Below are positions 29,571 to 40,413 of a stretch of DNA of 51,589 nucleotides, piece by piece. The stretch covers positions 1 to 51,589 of the forward strand of contig JAFQFH010000004.1 in NCBI GenBank assembly GCA_017398685.1, written 5' to 3'. The translations under genes were made by a program, and so were the position numbers. The stretch comes from Oscillospiraceae bacterium. Its GTDB lineage: Bacteria > Bacillota > Clostridia > Oscillospirales > Oscillospiraceae. The notes beneath the pieces were generated by a model, which made no database searches, had not been told where the DNA came from, and worked only from the letters and a program-made list of their open reading frames with translations. Position 1 is the stretch's first letter; each line of letters begins with the position of its first letter.

Positions 29571-31390
<1,820 letters not shown>

Positions 31391-31404
<14 letters not shown>

Positions 31405-32311
31405 AATACAAATCTCCCGCTGCAGATGTCCGCTGCCGCTTCAGGGCTCTGACACCTGCGGTTATTTCTATCATTTCGTTGGTGATGGTAGCCTGACGGA
31501 TCTTATTATACTGGACCTGGAGGGTCCTGAGCATTTCCTCGGCATTGTCGCCTGCATTTTTCATAGCCATCATGCGAGATTGCTGCTCGCTGCAAAAGCT
31601 CTTCACAAGGCAGCCGTAGATATAGCCCATGATATAGCTTGGCACAACACCATCAAGAACGGTATCCGCATCCGGCAAAAACTTCTTTTCAATATGCCTG
31701 CTTTCAGTACCGGCATCGCCGAAATGCGCCCCATTGAGAGGGAGCAGAGTGCTGACACGGCATACACCGGGCTTTGCGCCCACATAGTCTGTGTAAACAA
31801 CGCTTATCTCATCGAGCTTGCCGGACTCGTAGTACTCCAGAAGCTCAGCGCAGATCTTTCTTGCATCATAGAGACTGGGGCTCACAAGAGAATAGTGAAA
31901 ATCCTGCCGGAAGGGGATTTTGTGGTTTGTAAAATACTGCCTGCCAAATTCACCGATGACAAAAAGCGTGGTCTGAGGATGCTTTTTCATAAAGCCCTCG
32001 CAGGCGCGGATGACATCCTGGTTATATGCACCGGCAAGTCCTTTATCCGCAGTTATCAGCAATATCCCGTGGTTCTTCACAGCTTCGGGGCTCTCTGCTG
32101 AGCGGCTGAAGTAGCGGCTTTCGGTGTTGGGGATGTGGCAGAGAAGCTCACTGATTTTTTCGGACAGGCTGTCAAAATAGGGAACTGTGCTTTCAAAATC
32201 TTTCGTTGCTCTTCTCAGCTTGACGGAGGAGATCATATACATGGCATCAGTTATTTTCTTGGTATCCCGGACACCTGCGATCCTGCTTTTTATCTCGCTT
32301 GCGGTTGCCAT
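31391..32311 (-). CDS. atpG: F-type ATP synthase gamma subunit
   Basis: 306 residues. The N-terminal helix reads I-K-S-R-I-A-G-V-R-D-T-K-K-I-T-D-A-M, and the C-terminal helix M-M-A-M-K-N-A-G-D-N-A, as expected for the central rotor shaft. The middle Rossmann-like domain starts I-T-A-D-K-G-L-A-G-A-Y-N. It ends 14 nt inside atpD and follows atpA by 15 nt. Confidence 0.94.
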
Positions 32312-32326
32312 GCGCTACATCTCCTC

Positions 32327-34105
32327 TCATTTAAGATTTGCCATAAACTGTCTGGCAACTTGGATAATGTCGTTTTTCAGTTCTTCCGAATATGTTCTGC
32401 CGACCGTGATTCTGTGGCAGATATCGCTGTGCTGCTGCTCGAAATGAGCGATAAGCTCTTTTTGTACAGCTTTGATCTCTTTCACCGGCACATCCACAAA
32501 AATTCTGGCCTGTGCACAGATAAGGGTGATGACCTGTCTCTGGAGGGAAAGCGGGGAATTGTTGGGCTGCCTGAGAAGCTGCATCAGACCCGCGCCGTAC
32601 TTGAGCTGGCGGGCAGTGCTTGCGTCAAGGTCGCCGCTGAACTGGGAGAAGGCCTGCATTTCGCGGTACTGAGCAAGGTCAAGACGGATAGAACCGACGG
32701 ACTTTTTCATAACATTGGTCTGGGCTGCGCCGCCAACTCGGGAAACGGAAAGACCAACGTTTATGGCGGGACGCTGACCGGAGAAGAACAGCTCACTTTC
32801 AAGGAAGAGCTGACCGTCAGTTATGGAAATTATGTTTGTGGGGATATAAGCGGAAACGTCACCCGCCTGAGTCTCAACGATAGGCAGGGCGGTTATGCTG
32901 CCGCTGCCCAGATTGTCGGAAAGCTGGGCGGAACGCTCCAGAAGTCTTGAATGCAGATAGAAAACGTCGCCGGGGTAAGCCTCACGACCGGGGGAACGCT
33001 CCAGAAGAAGGCTCAGGGTACGGTATGCAACAGCGTGCTTGGAAAGGTCATCGTAGATGATAAGCACGTCTTTGCCCCGGTACATGAAATACTCCGCCAC
33101 GGCGCAGCCTGCGTAGGGTGCAATATATTGCAAGGATGCAGAGTCACTGGCAGGGGAGGAAACCACCACGGTGTAGTCCATGGCGTCATGCTTTCTAAGG
33201 GTGGACACAACCTTTGCAATGGATGTGGCCTTCTGACCGATACCGACGTAAACACAAATGACGTTCTTGCCCTTCTGGTTGATAATGGTGTCGGTTGCAA
33301 TAGTGGTTTTGCCGGTCTGTCTGTCGCCGATGATAAGCTCACGCTGACCGCGGCCTATGGGGAACATGGAGTCTATGGCCAGAATACCTGTCTCGAGCGG
33401 ACGGTTGACGGCCTTACGGTCAATAATGGGAGGTGCGGGGCGCTCAATGGGGAAATATTCCACAGCGTTGATCTCGCCGGCACCGTCAACAGGCTTGCCC
33501 AGAGGATCTATGATCCTGCCGAGAGTTTTCATGCTCACGGGGATACCGGCGGTACGCTTGGTTCTCACCACGCGGCTGCCTTCGGAAATCTCAGAGTCGT
33601 CGCCGAAAAGAACAACGCCGTTGGTGCCGTCGGCGCGGATATCCTGCACCATGCCCTTGACACCGCAGTCAAAGAGCACTATTTCGCCGTATTCTACCTC
33701 GTGCAGACCGCGGATTATGGCAATACCGTCACCCACGGAGGTAACGAAGCCCACGGGCTGATGCCCTGCATGAAGCTCAAAGTTCTTTATATCCTCGCGC
33801 AGAAGAGAAATTATCTGAGCGGGGTCACTTTCTTTTGCCAGAGCCTTGATAGACTCATTAAGCTGGCGGACACGGCCCTGAGTACTCCAGTCGTAGTTTT
33901 CGTCGCCTACAAAGATGCGGAAGCCACCCAGAACACTGGGGTCTTTCTTTATGACAAAGTCCACATCGTCAGTGCCGTACTCAGCGGCGAAGAAGTCGCG
34001 CATTTTTGCAAGCTGAGCTTCACTGGGCGGGGTGACGCACTGGATCTCTACCGTGAGAACATTACGCTTTTCTTCTTCGGGAAGGTCAAAATTACTTTTT
34101 ATCAT
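32327..34105 (-). CDS. atpA: ATP synthase alpha subunit with the delta C-terminal domain fused at its N-terminus
   Basis: 592 residues instead of the usual 500 or so. Residues about 16-89 match the C-terminal domain of subunit delta (OSCP): L-T-V-E-I-Q near the start, D-P-S-V-L-G-G-F (55-62), then G-D and Y-D-W-S-T-Q-G-R-V-R-Q-L. From about 93 a complete alpha subunit follows, with P-loop G-D-R-Q-T-G-K-T (260-267). There is no separate delta gene between atpF and this gene, and the N-terminal helical bundle of delta is missing. The start at 34105 is the ATG overlapping the atpF end by 14 nt and has GAGAGG upstream. A longer frame exists but lies inside atpF. Confidence 0.93.
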   Translation of the reverse strand: MIKSNFDLPEEEKRNVLTVEIQCVTPPSEAQLAKMRDFFAAEYGTDDVDFVIKKDPSVLGGFRIFVGDENYDWSTQGRVRQLNESIKALAKESDPAQIISLLREDIKNFELHAGHQPVGFVTSVGDGIAIIRGLHEVEYGEIVLFDCGVKGMVQDIRADGTNGVVLFGDDSEISEGSRVVRTKRTAGIPVSMKTLGRIIDPLGKPVDGAGEINAVEYFPIERPAPPIIDRKAVNRPLETGILAIDSMFPIGRGQRELIIGDRQTGKTTIATDTIINQKGKNVICVYVGIGQKATSIAKVVSTLRKHDAMDYTVVVSSPASDSASLQYIAPYAGCAVAEYFMYRGKDVLIIYDDLSKHAVAYRTLSLLLERSPGREAYPGDVFYLHSRLLERSAQLSDNLGSGSITALPIVETQAGDVSAYIPTNIISITDGQLFLESELFFSGQRPAINVGLSVSRVGGAAQTNVMKKSVGSIRLDLAQYREMQAFSQFSGDLDASTARQLKYGAGLMQLLRQPNNSPLSLQRQVITLICAQARIFVDVPVKEIKAVQKELIAHFEQQHSDICHRITVGRTYSEELKNDIIQVARQFMANLK

Positions 34106-34613
34106 TGTTGGCCCTCTCTCTCGCTGCCGAATCTCCGGCGAGACGTATGAACTCATCATAAAGTGCACTGTCTCTTTCGGGGTTGGCAGTGTCGCTGAGC
34201 AGCTTCTGGGTTGCGGAGACGACCAGCTCGCCTATCTCGGCCTGAGCACTTTGGAGAATATGGCCCTTTCTCTCCTCAGCCTCATTTTCGGCCTTGAGGA
34301 TGATACGGGCGGCCTTTTCTCTTGCTTCCTTTATGTACTGGGCAGAAACATCGGCGCATTCCTTCTCGGCAGATTTTTTCTTCTCTGCGATCTCGGTGTC
34401 TGCATCTCTGAGCTTCTGCTCGTACTGAACACGGAGCTGTTCGTTTTTCTCAGCGTCCTCCAGGTTCTTCTTTTCTGTCTGCACAAACTGCTCACGACGC
34501 TGCTCCAGAAAACGGTTGACCGGCTTGAAAAGAAGGAAGGTCAGACCGCCTGCAAGGATAACGAAGTTGAGCATATGCAGAAGTATCTGCAAAAAATCAA
34601 TGTTAAGCGGCAT
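34092..34613 (-). CDS. atpF: F-type ATP synthase b subunit
   Basis: 173 residues. One N-terminal membrane helix (about 8-29, beginning L-Q-I-L-L-H-M-L-N-F) is followed by a long charged coiled coil rich in E, K, A and Q. The helix and length are typical of bacterial b. There is no fused delta domain here, in contrast to the b-delta fusions known in mycobacteria. It overlaps atpA by 14 nt and follows atpE by 12 nt. Confidence 0.92.
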   Translation of the reverse strand: MPLNIDFLQILLHMLNFVILAGGLTFLLFKPVNRFLEQRREQFVQTEKKNLEDAEKNEQLRVQYEQKLRDADTEIAEKKKSAEKECADVSAQYIKEAREKAARIILKAENEAEERKGHILQSAQAEIGELVVSATQKLLSDTANPERDSALYDEFIRLAGDSAARERANNDKK

Positions 34614-34625
34614 ATCCTATCCCTC

Positions 34626-35000
34626 TTACAGAACGAAAATAACGAGAATTGCGATAACCAGAGCGTAGATGATAGCGGTTTCAATGAAAACCAGACCCAG
34701 CATCATTGCGGAGTTGATCTTGCCTGCCATCTCGGGCTGACGTGCCATGCTCTCAGCGCTCTTGGAAATGGCCATACCCATTGCGATAGCACCGGCAGCG
34801 CCGACGATACCCACAACGATTGCGGAAGCCATGGCCTTGGAGGAGAGAAGATCGTTTTCGTTGGAGCCGGCTTCAGTTTCGGCAACGGCAGCGGCCTCAG
34901 CCTCGGCTGCGGGCTCTTCTGCAAATGCGCGGACGGACATAAGTGCGGTGAAGCTGAACACCATGATAAGGGTCATAAGAATAACTGCAAACTTTTTCAT
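34626..35000 (-). CDS. atpE: F-type ATP synthase c subunit with signal-peptide-like leader
   Basis: 124 residues, well above the usual 70-90. Residues 1-27 look like a signal peptide (K-K, hydrophobic core, A-F-A cleavage site). Residues 28-50 are an acidic Ala/Glu linker. The c hairpin then starts near 55, with the polar loop A-R-Q-P-E (86-90) and carboxylate E107 in helix 2. The glutamine that marks many Na+ rings is a methionine here, so H+ coupling is more likely, though E107 is followed by T. ATG at 35000 follows AAGGAG. A longer frame lies inside atpB and has no ribosome binding site. Confidence 0.88.
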   Translation of the reverse strand: MKKFAVILMTLIMVFSFTALMSVRAFAEEPAAEAEAAAVAETEAGSNENDLLSSKAMASAIVVGIVGAAGAIAMGMAISKSAESMARQPEMAGKINSAMMLGLVFIETAIIYALVIAILVIFVL

Positions 35001-35004
35001 TTTA

Positions 35005-35871
35005 TTATATCTCCTTTGCTTTCTTGGCTTTCTTTGTTTTTTCTTTCTTGGGCTTGGGCTCCACGGCTTCACCGTAGAAGATGGATACAAGTGTTGTAAG
35101 CACGTAGGCCTGAATTGCTGCATGCAGCAGGGTAAAGAGCACAGCCACAACGATGGGCAGGGCAAAGCTGAGGCTTATGGAATAGTAGACAAGCTCCGTC
35201 ACCAGAAGGCCGCTGAGCAGTGCGCCGAAAAGACGGAAGCTCATGGATATGGGCAGGGAGAAGTCCTTGAGTACACCCAGTGCACCCTTCACACCGCCGA
35301 ACACGATGCCGCCGCCAAGGATCACCACATAGGACATGACGCCCATGGCGATAGCTGCGTTTATGTCCGAAATGGGTGCAGGCAGGCTCATGGAGTGACC
35401 TGCGGTAGTTATCCACTGCACACCGAACAGCTCAAATATGGTGCTGAAGAATATGTACACACCGGCGCTGAATATATATGCGCCCACAAAATGAGGCTCG
35501 TGGTGACTGTTGCTGCGGGCCATGCCGGAAAAGAAGTCCACCAGCATTTCAATTACGCTCTGGAACTTTCCGGGCACAGTCTTGAATCTGGGTATGGCGA
35601 ATATGCGGATGAGAGCAGCCCCCACCAGCAGTATTGCCGTGACCATATAGGCCGAAATAATTCCGGGGTTGACCACCAGCCCGAAAAACGCCATCTTGTT
35701 GTGCTCGTGGAGAACACTGTCTTTCATTACCGTCTGTATGCTTTCGTGCTTTTCACCGGGCGGCAGCATAATGATGATGCCCACAAGGATCAAAGCAATC
35801 AGAGCAAGCCAAAGTACAAGGAAAACGTTCTTTTTGCCCTTGCCTTTGGAGACTATTGCGCTATGCTCCAT
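35005..35871 (-). CDS. atpB: F-type ATP synthase a subunit
   Basis: 288 residues with several membrane helices. The conserved proton-channel arginine is in S-M-S-F-R-L-F-G-A-L, and the C-terminal helix has A-A-I-Q-A-Y-V-L-T-T-L. The C-terminus is a lysine-rich tail, which is unusual. ATG at 35871 follows AGAAAGGAG at 6 nt. It is the first gene of the operon, with no atpI upstream. Confidence 0.93.
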   Translation of the reverse strand: MEHSAIVSKGKGKKNVFLVLWLALIALILVGIIIMLPPGEKHESIQTVMKDSVLHEHNKMAFFGLVVNPGIISAYMVTAILLVGAALIRIFAIPRFKTVPGKFQSVIEMLVDFFSGMARSNSHHEPHFVGAYIFSAGVYIFFSTIFELFGVQWITTAGHSMSLPAPISDINAAIAMGVMSYVVILGGGIVFGGVKGALGVLKDFSLPISMSFRLFGALLSGLLVTELVYYSISLSFALPIVVAVLFTLLHAAIQAYVLTTLVSIFYGEAVEPKPKKEKTKKAKKAKEI

Positions 35872-37746: not shown

Positions 37747-38919
37747 TCATTTCAGCATTTTACGCAAGCTCTCAAGGCTTATGCCTTTTTCTGCTGCGAT
37801 AGCAGCAAGATCCTCATACTCGTACTTTTCACGGCTGACCCCGTAGCCTTCGGCTTTTTTAACACGCACATTGCCGAAAACAGTTTTTCTCGTCTCAAGC
37901 TTTCGCTCAAGTACGTAGCGTGAGCAGGTATATTCCCTTATGCCGAGAGTTGAGGTATATGTGAAAATAAGCCGGGCAAAGCGTTCCTTTTCGGATATGG
38001 GACATAACACAGTCAGGAGCACCGCCGGGCGGGACTTTTTCATGCCTATGGCAGTGGTGAATACATCCAGTGCGCCCTCATCCATAAGCCGCTCTGCGGC
38101 AAAGGCGATATCCTCCGCACTCATGTCGTCTATATTGCAGGCAAGCTCCGTCACCTGATCGCGGCTGTCAGCGCTTTCACCCAGCATTGCACGAAGGCAG
38201 TTGGCACGCTCAAAGTCCTTTTTGCCCATGCCGTAGCCGATGGCGGACACGGACATAGGCGGCATATCCCCGAAGCTCTTTACAAAGTGCTTCAGAAGAG
38301 CCGCCCCGGTGGGAGTGCAAAGCTCAGTTTTTATATTGCCTGCTGTGATGGGGATACCCTTCAAAAGCTCTGCTGTGGCGGGAGCGGGTACCGGCAGTAT
38401 GCCATGGGCGCATTTTACGGTGCCGCTTCCGGTGCAGACAGGGGAGGCATTGACACTCTCCACACCAAGCTCACTTATAAGCAGGGAAACGGCGGTAATG
38501 TCCGCAATGGCGTCCATCCGGCCAACCTCGTGAAAATGTATGTCACTCACCGGCACACCGTGCACCTTGCTCTCGGCTCCGGCGATAAGAGCATAAACGG
38601 CCAGAACATCCTCACGCACTTTTTCGGGCATGTCCAGATGGGATATGATGTGTTCAATGCTGTGCATATCGGCATGCTCATGGTGATGATGGTGTCCGTG
38701 AAGATTTTCATCTTCCTCGATACCGTGGACGGATACGGAAAAATGAGTGCCGCAGATGCCGCATTTGGTGAGCTTCTCCGCGCTTATCTTTACACCGTGA
38801 AGCCCCATATTGTTCATGCGGCGGATAAAACCATCCCTGTCCGGGTGCAGCTCCAGCAGCGCCGCTGCAAGCATATCCCCGGCCGCGCCCATGCCGCAGT
38901 CAAGATACAGGGTCTTCAT
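37747..38919 (-). CDS. larC: Nickel pincer cofactor biosynthesis protein LarC
   Basis: 390 residues. The LarC signature Y-L-D-C-G-M-G-A-A-G-D-M is at the N-terminus, with a His-rich stretch around residues 74-86 that could bind nickel, and G-A-A-L-L near 210. LarC inserts nickel into the pincer cofactor using CTP. In lactobacilli the gene is read through a programmed frameshift, but here a single uninterrupted frame encodes the full protein. It overlaps larB by 4 nt. Last gene of larE-larB-larC. Confidence 0.92.
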   Translation of the reverse strand: MKTLYLDCGMGAAGDMLAAALLELHPDRDGFIRRMNNMGLHGVKISAEKLTKCGICGTHFSVSVHGIEEDENLHGHHHHHEHADMHSIEHIISHLDMPEKVREDVLAVYALIAGAESKVHGVPVSDIHFHEVGRMDAIADITAVSLLISELGVESVNASPVCTGSGTVKCAHGILPVPAPATAELLKGIPITAGNIKTELCTPTGAALLKHFVKSFGDMPPMSVSAIGYGMGKKDFERANCLRAMLGESADSRDQVTELACNIDDMSAEDIAFAAERLMDEGALDVFTTAIGMKKSRPAVLLTVLCPISEKERFARLIFTYTSTLGIREYTCSRYVLERKLETRKTVFGNVRVKKAEGYGVSREKYEYEDLAAIAAEKGISLESLRKMLK

Positions 38920-39671
38920 CCTTTGACCTCCATATGGTTTATCATGCTGGCAAGATAGCCTGCGCCAAAGCCGTTATCAATGTTCACAACGCTCATACCG
39001 CTGGCACAGGAGTTGAGCATGCTCAGAAGTGCCGCAACGCCGCCGAAGGCCGCACCGTAGCCTACACTGGTGGGAACGGCGATAACCGGGCAGTCAGCAA
39101 GGCCGCCGATGACGCTGGGCAGGGCGCCCTCCATACCTGCCACTGCCACGATGACAGTAGCGCTCATTATGTGCTCCATGTGGCTCAAAAGCCTGTGTAC
39201 GCCGGAGACACCCACATCGTAGATTCGCACCACCTCGTTGCCAAGGCTTTCCGCTACAAGGGCAGCCTCCTCAGCAACGGGTATGTCTGTTGTGCCGCCG
39301 GTGGCAACAAGGATCTTGCCAATACCGTCTGGGGCTGGGAAGCCGCCGATGATACCCACACGGGAGCGCTCACGATAGTCAAGTTCATAAAGCCTGCCAA
39401 CATAATCTGCTGCTTCCTGAGCCATGCGGGTGATGAGTATACGCTCCTGACCGTTTGAACGCATGGTTTCTATTATACCGGCGATCTGCTCGGGGGTCTT
39501 GCCTGCACCGTAGATGACCTCGGCCACACCCTGACGGATCTTGCGGTGCAAATCCACCTTGGCAAAACCTATATCCTCAAAGGGAGCCATTTTTATCTGC
39601 AAAAGGGCCTCATCTACAGAGGTTTCGCCCTTTTTCACGCTTTCAAGCAGCTTTCTCACTTCACTGTTCAT
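38916..39671 (-). CDS. larB: Pyridinium-3,5-biscarboxylate synthase LarB
   Basis: 251 residues. The C-terminal domain resembles PurE (AIR carboxylase): V-A-T-G-G-T-T-D-I-P-V-A-E-E-A and V-A-V-A-G-M-E-G-A-L-P-S-V-I-G-G. It carboxylates and hydrolyses nicotinate adenine dinucleotide in the first step of pincer cofactor synthesis. The start at 39671 follows GGAGG and overlaps larE by 11 nt. Confidence 0.93.
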   Translation of the reverse strand: MNSEVRKLLESVKKGETSVDEALLQIKMAPFEDIGFAKVDLHRKIRQGVAEVIYGAGKTPEQIAGIIETMRSNGQERILITRMAQEAADYVGRLYELDYRERSRVGIIGGFPAPDGIGKILVATGGTTDIPVAEEAALVAESLGNEVVRIYDVGVSGVHRLLSHMEHIMSATVIVAVAGMEGALPSVIGGLADCPVIAVPTSVGYGAAFGGVAALLSMLNSCASGMSVVNIDNGFGAGYLASMINHMEVKG

Positions 39672-40413
39672 CTCTTGCCTCCATATCAAGCATCACGGAT
39701 GCGTAGTATTTTTTCAACTCATGGTTGATCTCATCGGCCTGTGCCACGGCCTTGGGCATATCCGCTGCCCTCAGCTGTATTCTGGCACAGCCATTGAATA
39801 GGCGTATGCGGAAATTTTTGAAGCCGAGGGAAAAAAGATACTCCTCCGCTCTCTCCGTAGCCTCAAGCTTTTCCGGCGTTATGGCCTCACCCGTGGGTAT
39901 TCTCGTGGCAAGGCAGGCATAGGCGGGCTTATTGTGAGTGAACAGCCCGGCCTCCTTTGAAAGACACCGTATCTCAGCTTTTGTGAGGCCGCACTCCCTC
40001 AAGGGCGAGCGCACCGAAAGCTCACGGAGTGCTCTCATACCCGGTCTGTCGGCTACGTCATCGGAGGCGTTGCTGCCGTCCAGCAAAAGACCGAAGCCGT
40101 CACGGGCGGCCTTGCTCATAATGGCGGAGAGTATGGCCTTTTTGCAGTGATAGCAGCGCTCCGGCGGATTTGAGGAAATATCATCATTTTCAAGGACATT
40201 GAGGGGGATGATCTCCATGTCCGCACCAAGCTCTGACGCAAGGCGTCTCGCATCTTCCAGCTCAAAATGTGGCTGAAAGGGGCCTTTCACATAGTAGGCT
40301 TTCACATCCGCGCCGTATTTTATTGCTGCGTACAAAAGATATGCCGAGTCTGCTCCGCCGGAAAAGGCGATGGCAGCCTTTGGGTTTTGGGCAAAAAATT
40401 CTTTCAGTTCCAT
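39661..40413 (-). CDS. larE: ATP-dependent sacrificial sulfur transferase LarE
   Basis: 250 residues. The PP-loop S-G-G-A-D-S-A-Y (18-25) binds ATP for substrate adenylation. C167 in A-C-L-A-T-R lies where LarE carries its sulfur-donating cysteine. LarE puts sulfur into the pyridinium intermediate that LarC then metallates. First gene of the cluster. No LarA (lactate racemase) or other client enzyme is encoded in the window. Confidence 0.9.
   Translation of the reverse strand: MELKEFFAQNPKAAIAFSGGADSAYLLYAAIKYGADVKAYYVKGPFQPHFELEDARRLASELGADMEIIPLNVLENDDISSNPPERCYHCKKAILSAIMSKAARDGFGLLLDGSNASDDVADRPGMRALRELSVRSPLRECGLTKAEIRCLSKEAGLFTHNKPAYACLATRIPTGEAITPEKLEATERAEEYLFSLGFKNFRIRLFNGCARIQLRAADMPKAVAQADEINHELKKYYASVMLDMEARDEQ

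Follow-up and report, generated by a model that had tools for sequence, protein, structure and literature searches.

The window, by which we mean the whole analysed stretch of 51,589 nucleotides, carries an F-type ATP synthase operon on its minus strand. Open reading frames and Pfam searches gave the gene order a, c, b, alpha, gamma, beta, epsilon (Table 1), with matches for all seven subunits and all genes grouped together, which bore out the order proposed in an earlier sequence-only reading of this DNA. It contains a single a gene and a single b gene, the same count as in ordinary F-type operons. Subunit b possesses a single hydrophobic stretch close to its N-terminus, and the stop codon of its gene (34094-34092) falls within the start region of the alpha gene, the overlap that had already been described. 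A purine-rich GAGAGAGAGGG stretch resembling a ribosome binding site lies upstream of the alpha ATG at 34105. The in-frame TAG in the beta gene is a single one and corresponds to codon 140; it represents either a base error of the draft genome, which is an easy reading, or a strain-specific break. In L092, the nearest named relative among the best 80 of 356, the beta gene is intact and its product is 96% identical to the window beta. Subunit c of the window has an N-terminal, signal-peptide-like extension of about 50 residues, which is common to L092, L044, L071, and L046 and absent from L047, L072, and the seven loci L032-L038 described below. Outside the operon, two adjoining minus-strand frames (37747-39689) resemble LarC and LarB nickel-pincer cofactor genes.

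Table 1. Genes and protein features of the F-type ATP synthase operon in the window, in order of transcription.
Feature	Position	Strand	Details
atpB, subunit a	35005..35871	-	PF00119; ATG at 35871, preceded by AAGGAG
atpE, subunit c	34626..35000	-	PF00137; ATG at 35000
atpF, subunit b, full length	34092..34613	-	173 aa; PF00430; hydrophobic 19-mer
atpA, delta C-terminal domain plus ATP synthase alpha	32327..34105	-	592 aa; ATG at 34105, stop at 32327
atpA: delta/OSCP C-terminal domain, residues 10-85	33851..34078	-	PF00213 positions 96-171 of 172, E 6e-11
atpA: linker, residues 86-94, from the Pfam delta match to the first residue aligned to ordinary alphas	33824..33850	-	
atpA: complete alpha with N-terminal helix, barrel, nucleotide-binding, and C-terminal domains	32327..33823	-	PF02874, PF00006, PF00306
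atpG, gamma	31391..32311	-	PF00231
atpD, beta	29977..31404	-	broken by one in-frame TAG at 30985-30987
atpC, epsilon	29571..29984	-	PF02823

The alpha gene was confirmed to start with a delta/OSCP C-terminal domain. The protein scores 43.2 bits with PF00213 (OSCP; cut-off 22.3), and this match is followed by ATP-synt_ab_N, ATP-synt_ab, and ATP-synt_ab_C in that order. Alignment to solved alphas begins at residue 95, which leaves an extension of about 94 residues ahead of the part shared with ordinary alphas, and 76 of these residues match delta. The sequence-only reading had spoken of about 75 extra residues, a figure that holds for the part matching delta and is too low for the whole extension. 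Comparison of residues 1-102 with PDB sequences yielded seven distinct sequences at E ≤ 0.01, each matched over its delta C-terminal domain; among them were the delta subunit of Bacillus PS3 (6N2Y, E 1.3e-4), the engineered fusion 9JC1, mitochondrial OSCPs, and mycobacterial b-delta. The delta N-terminal bundle is absent from the window protein, in which the C-terminal domain alone was matched, and its loss had been recognized correctly from the letters.

No separate delta was found in the genome (85 contigs, 94.4% complete), where PF00213 at E ≤ 10 returned the fusion as the single match with two candidates scored, and PF00306 at E ≤ 1e-5 detected one alpha gene, the fused one; at this completeness, the absence of another alpha or delta is not beyond doubt. 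The sequence-only reading had likewise assumed that no second delta exists, and that three delta tails would be present per enzyme. Neither of the two findings that would have contradicted it, a complete delta at another place in the genome or a lack of delta-family matches in the extension, turned up. Over a stretch of 32 codons spanning the alpha N-terminus and the linker, no in-frame ATG, GTG, or TTG occurs. Since the sole alpha gene is fused and the linker lacks an in-frame start, every alpha should carry a delta domain, giving three per F1, and free alpha is not expected from this gene.

Both parts of the protein are under purifying selection, with omega values of 0.02-0.21 for the delta domain and 0.01-0.15 for alpha in the nine of 14 relative pairs that had unsaturated dS. 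The linker, by our own measure, comprises 10-15 residues in 76 of 81 delta-CTD-alpha genes (CTD, C-terminal domain), with a range of 10-51. An AF2 model built from the window alpha and 49 relatives was weak (mean pLDDT 68, pTM 0.52). Within it, block means of 70-84 were attained by the delta core. In both AF2 models the delta part forms a small mixed strand/helix domain whose core has a block pLDDT of 70-86. A fold search with the alpha model placed the three fusion chains of 9JC1 as the top three of 1328 matches, at an rmsd of about 16 Å; because of this value and the weakness of the model, the fold match adds little beyond the sequence. The model of the delta domain alone, made without an alignment, had no PDB fold match at E ≤ 0.001 among 723 at E ≤ 10.

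For an overview of the family, 150 genomes including the window's own were surveyed, of which 83 had an F1 alpha, with 90 alpha genes altogether. Layouts were assigned from frame lengths and opened loci, and for G063, G103, and G057 the layout was taken from a different contig of the respective genome. The fusion seen in the window recurs in related genomes: delta-CTD-alpha accounts for 26 of the 90 alpha genes and a tandem delta-CTD-delta-CTD-alpha for one, while b-delta-CTD-alpha was found nine times, a separate half-delta five times (open frames of 76-80 aa and one of 124 aa), and b-delta-CTD with free alpha twice. A full delta is fused to alpha in nine cases and taken to be encoded separately in the other 38, of which 24 were opened and the remaining ones assigned from the length of the frame and the PF00213 matches. 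Of the 83 family genomes having an F1 alpha, 42 contain an operon that lacks the delta N-terminal domain, and in four of these 42 (G008, G053, G099, and G148) a second operon appears to retain the domain, for G099 as judged from partial contigs. G081 holds a further b-delta-CTD-alpha (L085, cut by the contig), outside the 90, together with a separate delta. The divergent delta domains of G026, G122, and G131 were missed by PF00213 at E ≤ 0.01 and found by a profile built without them; G001, with a weak PF00213 match without alpha, was left out. Also, L052 and L053, in the single-contig genome G098, are two near-identical F-type operons with half-delta, and the alpha frame of the second copy is split. 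Two delta C-terminal domains stand in tandem ahead of alpha at L039:5523-7565, and in L040 delta-CTD-alpha is preceded by a second, longer b, whose frame of 244 aa ends in a weak PF00213 match.

The named relatives considered were the best 80 of 356 (592 pattern matches). A full alpha was present in 76 of these best 80, as delta-CTD-alpha in 56, full delta-alpha in 14, and with a separate delta in six. Judging by their titles, most of the best 80 of 356 are uncultured Clostridia of gut origin, sampled from ruminants and other animals; L092, the nearest one, shows 91% over the query region, carries the label Oscillospiraceae, and comes from roe deer colon. The labels (e.g. Lachnospiraceae, Christensenella) are those of the submitters and mutually inconsistent, so that they give no firm family name, and some named loci duplicate genomes already counted under G handles. 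Classification left out 12 of 161 loci, those without a full alpha.

In a draw of 398 genomes across the phylum, 335 had PF00213, and 20 with weak matches were followed, a selection that gives no rate for the phylum. In eight of these 20 weak-match genomes, a single frame of 605-659 aa contains both the delta match and alpha, and our own profile identified G150 as a ninth fusion; the nine cover seven families besides that of the window. The draw also contained a half-delta (G431), a b-delta-CTD (G498), and a delta followed by a second delta-CTD (G194). A PF00213 match running across two stops in G150 was considered as a relic of the delta N-terminal domain and dropped, as it is the end of b in the same frame. 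In G302, G378, and G402, PF00213 matches with its N-terminal half only (profile 6-98), and no PF00306 alpha was found in these genomes.

The number of losses of the N-terminal domain was analyzed on an alpha tree of 87 rows obtained by a quick, short search. The tree omits L053 (a second copy), L142, and 62 of the 76 other classified named loci (14 were used), and includes the partial L085. Two loci were treated as having a separate delta: the half-delta of L069 is a delta cut by the contig end, and the N-terminal extension of L184 is merely a long open frame before alpha. The tree requires at least six changes, of which three are forced by starred branches, and the arrangement holding together all 47 rows without the N-terminal domain was rejected (p-AU 0.0033). 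Loss of the delta N-terminal domain did not happen once, and transfer between lineages is likely; the changes on the tree carry no direction. In the window's part of the tree, full delta-alpha fusions stand beside delta-CTD-alpha, an arrangement that fits an order in which fusion came first and the N-terminal domain would have been lost later. Among the 37 rows of the part that holds the b-delta-CTD-alpha and half-delta clades, no full delta-alpha was found.

The b-delta-CTD-alpha layout deserves separate description. In seven full examples (L032-L038), a single frame of 741-815 aa encodes a b domain, the delta-CTD, and alpha in this order; the fused b contains a hydrophobic stretch in all seven (best 19-residue mean hydropathy 1.48-2.51), and a second, free b is present in each of these operons. 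In G004 and G109, which are placed in the window's genus, such a chain is encoded by the only alpha gene found. These chains may place three b arms on each enzyme unless they are cut or restarted. In four of the seven (L034, L035, L037, and L038) an SD-like motif precedes a start at the b/delta junction, so that a chain without b might also arise, which softens any statement that three arms are hard-wired; a motif before a start near alpha occurs in one (L032), and L033 has none at either place. The b-delta-CTD-alpha chains fall into a distant clade of the alpha tree, away from the window. For this reason, G004 and G109 were dropped as candidates for the next step of the window's own enzyme, and the layout supports the idea of natural multi-stalk enzymes rather than the window case directly. 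The window's genus presumably holds two F-type lineages, by transfer or loss.

A fusion of this kind has been constructed in the laboratory. Ueno et al. (2025; PMC12229609) argue that FoF1 is held to a single stalk by the delta N-terminal domain, which lies on the threefold axis; in the Bacillus PS3 enzyme this domain was deleted and the C-terminal domain was fused to alpha. The product had up to three stalks and three a subunits, an H+/ATP ratio of 5.8 versus 3.0, and an equilibrium pmf of 68 versus 133 mV at Q 2.5, although the share of triple-stalk particles was extremely low, which was ascribed to stalk detachment (PMC12229609). The paper also names a natural fusion in Acidaminococcus fermentans and in UniProt G4Q3K6 and A0A1I2C5T3, alike to the window in being natural delta-deltaN-alpha fusions by that description, and predicts natural multi-stalk enzymes (PMC12229609). 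The architecture seen by the sequence-only reading is accordingly not unprecedented, having been engineered and solved in 2025 and reported from Acidaminococcus, and the window is a further natural case of a fusion kind that we found noted in one paper (PMC12229609). Among the matches listed in open-licence PubMed Central, no natural delta-alpha or b-delta-alpha fusions beyond those of Ueno et al. were described. New here are the breadth of the N-terminal domain loss, its repeated origin, and the b-delta-CTD-alpha layout.

The window protein is collinear with chain I of 9JC1 (residues 25-570 on 12-557), and the linkers differ by one residue. Both enzymes lack the delta N-terminal domain and a separate delta and have the C-terminal domain, a short linker, and alpha in succession. 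The PS3 enzyme, however, is designed and epsilon-truncated, and its stoichiometry, structure, and H+/ATP ratio have been measured. Acidaminococcus belongs to the Negativicutes; the window's named relatives, in contrast, are uncultured Clostridia of the gut, and fusions of a full delta to alpha occur in the wider part of the alpha tree around the window. By its C-terminal domain at the alpha N-terminus, the missing N-terminal domain, and no other alpha or delta found, the window enzyme groups with the fused delta-deltaN-alpha FoF1 type.

Other known systems resemble it less closely. In the mycobacterial b-delta fusion (e.g. PDB 7JG5 chain d), the delta C-terminal domain is also joined to another stator subunit, but delta is full length, joined to b, and present once per enzyme; the window b is a separate gene, and the difference pointed out by the sequence-only reading stands. 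The relatives L045, L087, and L199 differ from the mycobacterial case in that their b-delta-CTD lacks the N-terminal domain. A/V-type ATPases have more than one peripheral stalk per head, built of subunits E and G, whereas the catalytic and membrane parts of the window enzyme are F-type. N-ATPase operons begin with beta and epsilon, in contrast to the order a-c-b-alpha-gamma-beta-epsilon of the window. N-ATPases furthermore lack delta and have a long, E-like b (PMC5706428), while a delta domain is present here. The same source relates the A/V-type stalk subunit E and flagellar FliH to b and delta together (PMC5706428); by analogy, the combination of b-like and delta-like parts in one stalk subunit is reminiscent of subunit E and FliH.

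We consider it the best, although unproven, reading that delta in the window survives only as the C-terminal domain that grips b, now joined to alpha, and that the enzyme is a multi-stalk, low-gear FoF1 (probability roughly 0.6). Each alpha3 beta3 head would offer three equivalent b2-docking sites on its top, and with no delta N-terminal domain on the threefold axis there would be no restriction to a single peripheral stalk. One c-ring could then bind two or three b2 stalks, each with an a subunit, so that the ions per turn would rise as the number of c times the number of a. Such a low gear would allow ATP formation from a weak ion gradient and, in reverse, the transport of more ions per ATP against a weak one. 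This reading is favoured because no other delta, one alpha gene, no start in the linker, and purifying selection were found, because the protein is collinear with that of an enzyme with up to three stalks and an H+/ATP ratio of 5.8 (PMC12229609), and because relatives encode b-delta-CTD-alpha as single chains with a hydrophobic fused b in seven of seven. Counted against it are the single a and b genes, the stop in beta, the weak AF2 model, the rarity of triple-stalk engineered particles, the distant clade of the b-delta-CTD-alpha chains, and the possible restart at the b/delta junction in four of seven.

The gene counts would suit an enzyme with three delta domains, one b2 stalk, and one a, in which the other two delta domains are idle or packed together and the fusion secures assembly and replaces the separate delta. 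Ring geometry or expression could restrict a, and the tandem domains of L039 show that extra copies need not each bear a stalk. We regard such a single-stalk enzyme as unlikely, though worth serious thought, since in the engineered fusion three sites bind b2 canonically and a and b are raised about twofold (PMC12229609). The b-delta-CTD-alpha chains of relatives likewise point to several b arms per F1, with the reservation of junction restarts. If free alpha were also made, by internal initiation or proteolysis, the average enzyme could carry a single fused alpha and a single stalk. In seven of 81 delta-CTD-alpha genes, an SD-like motif precedes a start close to the alpha N-terminus, but 40 of the 81 have no start there, as is the case in the window; among non-fused alphas, the same rule detected a start in 35 of 36 and an SD-like motif in 27 of 36. 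Internal initiation was rejected as the source because the window has no start and the 81 fused genes show no general signal, and the production of free alpha is very unlikely.

A decaying or uncoupled operon, in which the fusion has no meaning for stalk number, would agree with the TAG in beta and with two V/A-type ATPase D subunits in the same genome (G000, contigs C50 and C53). It is nevertheless highly improbable in view of the intact beta of L092, the purifying selection on both delta domain and alpha, the operons without the N-terminal domain in half of the F1-bearing family genomes (42 of 83), and the ease with which the TAG is read as a draft-genome base error. The F-type enzyme is probably not the only rotary ATPase of this genome, which also has two RnfC-like matches; that a low-gear synthase would be well matched to a weak ion gradient of the Rnf type is speculation.

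The ion-to-ATP ratio is usually ascribed to the size of the c-ring, with one stalk and one a. Ueno et al. report that stalk number can also set this ratio in the laboratory and suggest that nature may do likewise (PMC12229609). In one family of gut Clostridia the genetic change required is common; it is also found in no fewer than seven further families of the phylum and does not have a single origin. At somewhat less than even odds, we propose only tentatively that gut Clostridia have repeatedly dropped the stalk-limiting delta domain and thereby obtained natural multi-stalk, low-gear enzymes, and that one clade joins b arm, delta grip, and alpha in a single chain with three arms built in, an F-type enzyme on the stalk plan of the V/A type. 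The b-delta-CTD-alpha relatives are the sharper test object, chiefly the three of seven whose b/delta junction has no likely restart site.

Subunit a also varies among the relatives. At L043:3052-4893 its frame comprises 614 aa and contains the N-terminal membrane segment three times (positions of about 16-75 of the a profile twice, then nearly the whole of a), and L110 and L075 have one extra copy of this segment. The repeated segments in L043, L110, and L075 could provide extra docking places for b in multi-stalk enzymes.
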